Assembly: GCA_003222895.1 (NCBI GenBank)
Contig: QHXI01000066.1
Span: forward strand, 1 to 64,000
Source of the DNA: Acidobacteriota bacterium
Lineage (GTDB): Bacteria; Acidobacteriota; Blastocatellia; Pyrinomonadales; Pyrinomonadaceae
Direction of reading: 5' to 3'
DNA length: 64,000 bases
In this document: positions 35,139-37,840 of the stretch, piece by piece
How positions within the stretch are numbered: the stretch's first letter is position 1
How the letters are laid out: every line of letters starts with the position of its first letter
The notes under the pieces: model-generated
Seen by the model: only the letters and a program-made list of their open reading frames with translations
Databases searched by the model: none
Told to the model about the DNA's origin: nothing
Program-made: the position numbers and the translations under genes

Positions 35139-36485
35139 GTGCCGATCGCTAACGACCTCAAACGACAGATAGGTCTTCGCTCAGCCATCGCTTTGGTGGT
35201 CGGCGAGGTCATTGCGGTGGGAATCTTCCTGACGCCCGCGGGCATGGCCAAGTCGCTCGGTTCGCCCTTTTGGCTGCTGATCGTTTGGTTGTTGATGGGC
35301 GCGATGGCTGCGAGCGGCGCACTGTGTTACGGCGAGTTGGCCGCGCGATTCCCGGAAGCAGGCGGCGGTTATGTTTACTTGCGCGAAGCCTTTGGGAGAC
35401 CGTTTGCATTTCTGTACGGCTGGATGGCGCTGCTGGTGATGGATCCGGGACTGACAGCTGCGCTGGCAGTCGGCATAGCTACTTACTTGGGTTACATCTC
35501 AAATCTTTCACCGATCGCAATCAAGGCTACCGCTGTCGGCTCGATCATTATTCTCGCGATGATCAATATCTCAGGTGTGCGTATCGGCGCGGGCTTCTTG
35601 CGCTGGCTCACAATTCTCAAACTTGGGCTGTTAGCATTCATCTTGATGTGGGGTTTTGGATTTCGGCTTGGCAGTTGGTCAAACTTTGCGCCGTTCATAG
35701 CGCAGCGCTCGAACTCAGCGCCTCTCTTGCCTGCATTAGCTGGCGGACTGGTGGCCGCGTTCTTTTCGTTTGGCGGTTGGTGGGACGTTACGAAAGTGGC
35801 GGGCGAGGTTCGCGAGCCTGCGCGGACGCTGCCGCGTGCATTGATCTATGGCGTGGCAATCGTCACGGTGGTTTATATCCTAACGAGCGCGGCGTTTCTC
35901 TATTTAGTGCCGGTGGAATCGGTGAGCTCGGGCGAGACATTTGTGGCCCAGGCAGGACAGATGTTGTTCGGTCGAGCAGGCGGAAAGATTTTCGCGGCGA
36001 TCGTCGTCGTAACCGTCGTCGGCAGTTTGGCAGCAATTATCATGTCGTCGCCGCGGGTGTATTTTGCGATGGCGCGCGACGGCTTGTTCATTCCAGCAGT
36101 CGCTGCGATTAATCCTCGATTTGGCACGCCTGCTCGCGCGATAGCGTTGCAAGCGGTGTTAGCTTCGTTGCTCGTCGTACTCGGCAGCTTCAATCAAATA
36201 ATTTCCTATTTCATTTTCGTGGTCGTGATCTTTGTCGCGCTTACGGTGGCCGCACTTTTCGTGCTGCGACGAAACAAACAGCCCGGATATCTGACGCCTG
36301 GTTATCCTTTCACGCCGATCATATTTTTGAGTCTCGTTGCGCTGATACTTTTCCTTCTGGCGAGCAATAATCCGAAGCAGGCTTTTCTGGGCGCCGCAGT
36401 GGTAGCGCTGGGAATTCCAGTTTACTATCTTTTCTTTCGTGACGGTCATTCATCACTTATCGATCGAGGAACTAAATCGCTATGA
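35139..36485 (+). CDS. APC-superfamily amino acid permease
   Basis: A 448-residue inner membrane protein with about twelve helices. The first helix LRSAIALVVGEVIAVGIFLT contains the broken-helix glycine pattern of APC transporters, and YGELAARFPEAGGGYVYLRE is the conserved loop after helix 2. Members exchange or import amino acids; the substrate is unknown. The start is GTG 35139, 12 bp after the Oar gene. Its stop overlaps the following gene by ATGA (36482-36485), so the permease and the CMD-like enzyme are translationally coupled. Confidence 0.88.
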   Translation: MPIANDLKRQIGLRSAIALVVGEVIAVGIFLTPAGMAKSLGSPFWLLIVWLLMGAMAASGALCYGELAARFPEAGGGYVYLREAFGRPFAFLYGWMALLVMDPGLTAALAVGIATYLGYISNLSPIAIKATAVGSIIILAMINISGVRIGAGFLRWLTILKLGLLAFILMWGFGFRLGSWSNFAPFIAQRSNSAPLLPALAGGLVAAFFSFGGWWDVTKVAGEVREPARTLPRALIYGVAIVTVVYILTSAAFLYLVPVESVSSGETFVAQAGQMLFGRAGGKIFAAIVVVTVVGSLAAIIMSSPRVYFAMARDGLFIPAVAAINPRFGTPARAIALQAVLASLLVVLGSFNQIISYFIFVVVIFVALTVAALFVLRRNKQPGYLTPGYPFTPIIFLSLVALILFLLASNNPKQAFLGAAVVALGIPVYYLFFRDGHSSLIDRGTKSL

Positions 36486-37048
36486 CCTGGATTAAGACCA
36501 TCTCTATTGAAGACGACGAAAACGTTCGTCGCGCGGTCGAGGCGCAGCGCGAGCTTTACCCGGCGGAGTACGCCGAACCGATTCATCCAACACCCGACGG
36601 TCAAACATCAGGCATTGTCGCATCGCACAGCTTGATTCCTGAGGCGCTGCATCATGCGTTCGCGACGTTCGGCGCGTTGATGTCGCCGGATTTGCCGCTC
36701 ACCCGACGACAGCACGAGATGATTACGACCGTGGTTTCAGTCACGAACCGCTGTCATTATTGAATCGAATCTCACGCAGAGTTTCTGCGTCGCGTGACCC
36801 TGGATGAAGAGTTAGTAAAGGCGCTGCAGGATGATTACCGCACTGCGCCGATCTCTGAAGCTGACCGAGTAATGCTCGATTACGTCTTGCAGTTAACGAA
36901 AGATGCGACGCGAATTTCGCAAGCCGATCACGAACGGCTGCGTTTGCATGGGTTCGATGATCGCGCGATTCTCCAAATAACTTTGATTGCGTCGTGGTTT
37001 AATTACATCAATCGCGTGGCTGATGCGTTGGGAGTTGGCAGGGATTAA
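36482..37048 (+). CDS. CMD/AhpD-like peroxidase-related enzyme, probable selenoprotein (in-frame UGA)
   Basis: A 188-residue reading frame if TGA 36761-36763 is decoded. Both sides match the carboxymuconolactone decarboxylase/AhpD fold of peroxidase-related enzymes. The UGA falls exactly on the second cysteine of the redox motif: NRC91-H-Y-U94-IESH98, where relatives have CxxC followed by His; Glu79 is the likely proton relay. A 17-nt hairpin starts 10 nt after the UGA, as in bacterial SECIS elements. Selenium at this place would give a peroxidase or disulfide-reductase type active site. Without recoding, the product would be a 93-residue stub and the rest (from 36764) untranslated. No sel genes are in the window. 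Confidence 0.82.
36774..36790 (+). promoter_or_regulatory. SECIS-like stem-loop
   Basis: ACGCAGA (36774-36780) pairs perfectly with TCTGCGT (36784-36790) around a GTT loop, 10 nt after the in-frame TGA. Size, distance and a G at the first loop position agree with the E. coli fdhF-type element bound by SelB. A competing outer stem TCACGC/GCGTGA (36772-36777 with 36792-36797) is also possible. Confidence 0.7.
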
Positions 37049-37051
37049 CGT

Positions 37052-37840
37052 TCATGGTTTCTGCGATTTAGCGGGAGGTTGCGAGTCAGAGCATTCGCTC
37101 TTCTTTTGAATCCACTGAACTCCGGTCGGCGTAATTCTTACAACATCTATCGGTGGCCCAACATACTCGCTGCGCGCCGCGATTTCGGTTTCAATCAGTC
37201 GACGCACACCATCGTTCAAACCTGCTTTCCAAAAGTCAGGCGTCTCTTCGGGCAGGCCTTCAATCGCGTCACTCTCTCCGAGGAACCTGGTAACGATCGC
37301 GCCTTTGCAATCGTCGAGACAATCGTCCGGAATCACGGCCACGCCGATCTGTCCGGGATTGTATTGCAAAGCTCGGAAACTTCTGACGAACAGCAGCGGC
37401 CGTCCATTTTCAAAGCCAGCCACGACGATTCGCAAGAACAACTGACCGCCTTCGATCTTCTTGAAATAGGTCTGAGGTTCGTGAGTTTTCAGGTGCGATA
37501 GCTCAGTAAGCAGTCCCGAAACCAAATATCCCATCAGCACGCTTACTCTGTCGGATGCAGAAGTTGAAGCGTTGGACGCGAGCGCTTTGTTCGCGATATC
37601 AGGAACGCTGAAACCCGTTTGGCGATCGATTCCCAAGCCCTCGATCGCGAGAAATAAGTAGCCGAGCTGACGAATCTTGCAAGCTCGTCTGTTCAGAGCA
37701 TTTCCATACGCGTCCGTGACTTTGCTGTCGGCGCCAATAACAATTTCGTTTGCGGTGCGCGCTACTACGATTGTCGTTGCCCGCGCAGAACTCGCGTGCA
37801 AGAGCATCCAAGCACAGACGCAGAACAACAAGGCTCGCAT
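37052..37840 (-). CDS. Secreted proteasome-like Ntn-hydrolase
   Basis: A 262-residue protein with a 21-residue signal peptide ending SSARA. Signal peptidase cleavage would leave TTIVVARTANEIVIGADSK, which reads like the start of a proteasome beta subunit: Thr22 as mature Thr1, Asp38 at mature position 17 and Lys55 near the catalytic Lys33 position (RRACKIRQLG), followed by a FLAIEGLGID strand. The length also fits one Ntn-hydrolase domain. Family assignment is by pattern only. It would act in the periplasm or outside, activated by signal cleavage rather than self-cleavage. It converges with the selenoprotein gene, 3 bp apart. Confidence 0.7.
   Translation of the reverse strand: MRALLFCVCAWMLLHASSARATTIVVARTANEIVIGADSKVTDAYGNALNRRACKIRQLGYLFLAIEGLGIDRQTGFSVPDIANKALASNASTSASDRVSVLMGYLVSGLLTELSHLKTHEPQTYFKKIEGGQLFLRIVVAGFENGRPLLFVRSFRALQYNPGQIGVAVIPDDCLDDCKGAIVTRFLGESDAIEGLPEETPDFWKAGLNDGVRRLIETEIAARSEYVGPPIDVVRITPTGVQWIQKKSECSDSQPPAKSQKP

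Follow-up and report, generated by a model that had tools for sequence, protein, structure and literature searches.

The 64,000-nucleotide stretch of soil acidobacterial DNA analysed here (the window) carries a gene for a small AhpD-like, peroxidase-related protein of antioxidant type that is interrupted by a single in-frame TGA at codon 94. This UGA is conserved at a catalytic position of the enzyme, and a complete selenocysteine (Sec) machinery is encoded in the same genome. We put the probability that the gene encodes a selenoprotein, with UGA-94 read as Sec, at about 97%, because the TGA is conserved among relatives, the hairpin that follows it is frozen in sequence and covaries between clades, the sel genes are present, and the one close relative that lacks the TGA shows a matching loss of the other elements; Sec incorporation itself is thereby predicted from comparative data. 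The features that bear on this reading are as follows.

35139–36485, + strand: APC-superfamily amino-acid permease gene (PF13520, 192 bits; TIGR00911 is the best NCBIfam match, below its cut-off)
36482–37048, + strand: predicted AhpD-like, peroxidase-related selenoprotein gene, 188 residues (TIGR01926; CMD, PF02627)
36752–36754, + strand: codon 91 (TGT), Cys of CxxU and first redox residue, invariant in 83 close homologues and in alignment A2
36761–36763, + strand: codon 94, in-frame TGA, predicted Sec codon, TGA in 83/83 distinct close homologues
36773–36775, + strand: codon 98 (CAC), encoding the proton-relay His of AhpD, which is invariant in A2 and spaced as in PA0269
36774–36790, + strand: putative SECIS hairpin ACGCAGA-GTT-TCTGCGT, identified by codon entropy, covariation and a folding energy of −8.2 kcal/mol

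Active site and fold of the predicted enzyme

Codon 94 of 188 is the only internal stop of the open reading frame (ORF), whose terminal TAA ends at position 37048, and the redox motif reads C91-H-Y-U94, followed by H98. The original prediction had described this ORF, the TGA site, the CxxU motif and the hairpin, and all of these details proved correct when the sequence was read again. Standard gene callers end the ORF at the catalytic residue; thus, the enzyme is likely overlooked in MAGs of abundant soil phyla.

With Cys put in place of Sec, the 188-residue product matches the NCBIfam profile TIGR01926 (peroxidase-related enzyme) at 114.3 bits, compared to a curated cut-off of 81.8, and also matches the Pfam CMD family (PF02627). 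Two related CMD/AhpD-type (seleno)protein families show detectable similarity, with scores far below their curated cut-offs: NF041238 (AhpD_rel_CFYUT; 53.5 bits versus 175) and NF053654 (YciW-related; 39.9 bits versus 310). The gene is thus not a member of either. An AlphaFold model of the product, for which 40 sequences from the window and the loci were used, has a mean pLDDT of 94.5 and displays an all-helical AhpD-like fold, with 6K40, 2PRR and 2PFX as its top fold matches (TM ∼0.8). These peroxidase-related structures, together with 3C1L and 2OYO, are the closest solved structures by both sequence (best E 7.8e-26) and fold, and share 25–31% identity with the product. They differ at the active site, where 2PFX, 3C1L and 2PRR contain CxxC, where aligned, rather than CxxU.

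The active-site pattern Glu-x11-Cys-x-x-Cys/Sec-x3-His is present as E79, C91, U94 and H98, all of which are invariant in alignment A2 (in which U was read as C). The proton relay of PA0269 from Pseudomonas aeruginosa consists of Glu36, Cys48, Tyr50, Cys51 and His55 (PMC3141380), and the spacing of E79, C91, Y93, U94 and H98 is identical. Thus, the UGA falls on the C-terminal catalytic Cys. PA0269 (PDB 2O4D/2IJC) shares the same two-helix active-site motif, with a TM-score of ∼0.66 by query length; its chain is shorter and its second redox residue is Cys, and only weak peroxidase activity has been measured for it.

Decoding would proceed by SelB, carrying Sec-tRNA(UCA), binding to the hairpin directly downstream of UGA-94, with insertion of Sec at position 94 giving a full-length, all-helical AhpD-like enzyme. 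Its redox pair would then be Cys91-x-x-Sec94, backed by Glu79, Tyr93 and His98. A peroxide or disulfide could be reduced via a Cys–Sec selenenylsulfide, and a cellular thiol donor would re-reduce the enzyme. We infer peroxide or disulfide reduction as the most likely activity in vivo.

Conservation of the UGA codon and of the downstream hairpin

Relatives gathered from whole genomes of the class and from GTDB contigs gave 110 loci that span the site, or 83 after removal of duplicates, the window's own gene being counted among them. The original prediction had asked which residue homologues hold at position 94, and the alignment gives a clear answer: TGA in 83/83 distinct close relatives (70–88% protein identity), and a Cys codon in the single close relative from genome G104 (TGC) and in distant homologues (TGC or TGT). 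The close relatives are MAGs labelled Acidobacteriota, Gemmatimonadota, Latescibacterota, KSB1 and Planctomycetota (Pirellulales). Among near full-length matches of the class search with at least 58% identity, 57 of 58 contain one TGA by hand count, G104 again being the exception. Conservation of the protein sequence continues past the TGA through the C-terminal half. A more distant AhpD-like clade of the same class (L137–L147; 33–47% identity) has a UGA at the same position.

The hairpin consists of the stem strands ACGCAGA (36774–36780) and TCTGCGT (36784–36790), which form seven perfect base pairs around the loop GTT (36781–36783). It begins 10 nt past the TGA, the gap between the TGA and the loop is 17 nt, and the loop opens with G, followed by U. 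The published bacterial SECIS (bSECIS) model calls for a loop of 3–9 nt with a G in position 1 or 2, a stem of 4–16 bp, a spacing of 16–37 nt and an MFE of −7.5 or below (PMC13188914). The hairpin that the original prediction had proposed as a SECIS agrees with this model on all four counts (3-nt loop GUU, 7 bp, 17 nt and −8.2 kcal/mol). This folding energy is for the 17-nt hairpin alone; a longer stretch folds with −10.9 kcal/mol. In comparison with dinucleotide shuffles, the hairpin is not outstanding in folding energy (z of −0.35 and −0.14), and a stem of at least 7 bp under bSECIS geometry arose in only 31 of 20,000 codon-usage-weighted synonymous recodings.

The decisive evidence that this putative SECIS goes beyond chance is its conservation in the 83 relatives. 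Codons 98–103 (CAC GCA GAG TTT CTG CGT, encoding H-A-E-F-L-R) are nearly invariant across them and have the six lowest synonymous entropies (0.00–0.32 bits; median 1.44) of the 114 conserved columns with synonymous freedom. The flanking codons vary freely, with 1.97 bits for S97 and 2.08 bits for R104. As the hairpin codons are frozen and their neighbours are free, selection at the protein level does not explain the pattern. In the L137–L147 sister clade the hairpin persists although its sequence differs, e.g. ACGGAGA-GGA-TCTCCGT, and pairing in the stem is maintained across both clades through substitutions from C-G to G-C and from A-U to G-U. Standard pairs occupy 93.5% of the pair cells in 22 sequences from both clades, compared to 29–55% when the partner strand is slid, and one stem pair has switched from C-G to G-C in nine of the 22. 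These alignments show nucleotide-level selection on the predicted RNA element. The frozen hairpin could help to recognise further members; as a genome-wide probe at up to two mismatches it is not useful, since it gave 35 matches in the genome compared to 21 for the reversed control.

Selenocysteine machinery and a cysteine-containing relative

The host genome (4.77 Mb in 167 contigs, 96% complete) contains selA (540.7 bits), selB (365.6 bits), selD (357.5 bits) and selC, a tRNA-Sec with anticodon TCA (67 bits). The original prediction had made the absence of sel genes one of its points of failure, and the set found here is complete. The selD product is itself a predicted selenoprotein, with an in-frame TGA in an N-terminal CSGU motif (L018:1499-2500; own genome C34:172056-172985). 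Across the class, selA scores above the cut-off in 145 of 162 genomes, and in 71 of the 76 with the UGA gene or a UGA paralogue (hand count). The five exceptions are G013, G114 and G021, with G119 and G056 showing partial matches. They are mostly incomplete MAGs, but G021 is 94% complete; in G021 the tRNA-Sec match is strong and selB scores above the cut-off, and G013 has a tRNA-Sec above the cut-off. Several genomes of the class have two or three selA matches. In a Terriglobia MAG (L117), selB adjoins the selenoprotein gene (L117:3811-5775; TIGR00475, 326 bits).

The sole close relative without the TGA (L132; G104:C131:7902-8462) has TGC instead and encodes one full-length protein. Searches of its genome gave no selA match, selB matches only at the level of translation factors, and no tRNA-Sec above the cut-off. 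The G104 MAG is 86% complete, so part of this absence could be missing data, which limits its weight. The congeners G089, G101 and G105 all have selA, selB and tRNA-Sec. The phylogenetic tree pairs the G104 protein with L134, the G105 Sec protein, in a nested position within the Sec clade (support 99/91), and the simplest reading is that Cys arose secondarily in G104. At the hairpin columns, G104 has ATGCGGAGTTTTTGCGG, with a folding energy of −2.2 kcal/mol, compared to −8.2 kcal/mol for the window's hairpin; the structure was lost by silent changes that leave the residues AEFLRR unchanged. This apparent Sec-to-Cys reversion can be read as a clean natural experiment, in which a genome with no detectable Sec machinery has TGC in place of the UGA and a SECIS hairpin dissolved at silent sites.

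These observations bear on other explanations of the UGA. One substitution is enough to turn TGC or TGT into TGA, and a single MAG sequence on its own leaves room for error, so that the gene might be a pseudogene in two pieces created by a nonsense mutation or a sequencing mistake. The recurrence of the same TGA in 83 distinct relatives from many assemblies, with constraint on the protein persisting downstream, leaves this explanation with a negligible probability. Conservation of an in-frame TGA does not by itself identify the amino acid inserted. A suppressor or near-cognate tRNA might supply Trp or Cys at this codon, or the genetic code might be altered, without any involvement of selenium. 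However, TGA ends ordinary genes in the window, and read-through of these yields no extended homologous proteins by eye. The presence of selA, selB, selC and selD, the catalytic Cys at this site in homologues, the agreement of the hairpin with bSECIS, and the TGC codon in the G104 relative, with no Sec machinery detectable in that genome, also argue against such decoding, which we regard as very unlikely.

Because bacteria generally insert Sec with low efficiency, a share of the product should be truncated, and a further ORF start (GTG) is located at 36794. The UGA could accordingly be imagined as a regulated terminator, with the 93-residue fragment or the C-terminal piece being functional and Sec read-through incidental. 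This is a highly improbable arrangement given that invariant catalytic residues flank the UGA on both sides (E79 and C91 before it, H98 after it), that the C-terminal half is conserved, and that the Cys relative in G104 is a single full-length protein. Sec insertion, which the original prediction had preferred to a nonsense mutation, is supported by the conservation of the UGA, the bSECIS hairpin and the sel genes.

Relation to known selenoproteins and genomic context

AhpD-like selenoproteins with CxxU were first reported in 2005 from the Sargasso Sea (27 sequences; PMC1088965), followed in 2008 by AhpD-like 1 in the GOS data (299 sequences; PMC2398784), and a 2026 review lists TIGR01926 with CxxU as a prokaryotic selenoprotein family (PMC13188914). 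The present gene shares the NCBIfam family, the Sec position and the downstream bSECIS with these proteins (TIGR01926/COG2128). The selenoprotein family is already known, and the present gene is a well-supported additional member of it. The earlier surveys were mainly marine, whereas the present subfamily comes from Acidobacteriota and other phyla, mostly as soil MAGs; it also differs in being almost entirely Sec-containing, with a hairpin frozen at the nucleotide level. The wide, nearly all-Sec subfamily and its frozen SECIS are modest new points, and in the literature covered, mostly outside subscription journals, we found no paper describing a nearly all-Sec soil subfamily. A broader proposal is speculative. 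It holds that this is a distinct, almost exclusively Sec AhpD-like subfamily spread across several phyla of mostly soil bacteria, probably in part by horizontal transfer with its frozen SECIS, and that it may perform a selenium-dependent task not readily taken over by a Cys enzyme as long as the Sec machinery is retained, with a possible tie to amino acid or amine uptake by the adjoining permease.

The stop codon of the permease gene and the start codon of the selenoprotein gene overlap by 4 nt (ATGA, 36482–36485). GH13, GH77, ROK and GH31 genes, a TonB-type receptor gene and the permease gene lie upstream in the window. Of 80 relatives, 23 have an orthologous permease gene immediately upstream (a hand count in which some flanks are short), and the remaining relatives have varied neighbouring genes. 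The link to the APC permease, to which the original prediction had described the gene as coupled, may be functional. The accompanying suggestion that the gene closes a maltodextrin cluster adds little beyond local context, because most relatives lie in other neighbourhoods, and this association is probably accidental.

A read-through scan of the 64-kb window for other TGA-containing genes, assessed by eye, gave no second convincing candidate. Immediately downstream, at 37052–37840 on the − strand, an ORF of 262 residues runs convergently to the selenoprotein gene; it has a signal-peptide-like start and matches neither Pfam nor NCBIfam families.
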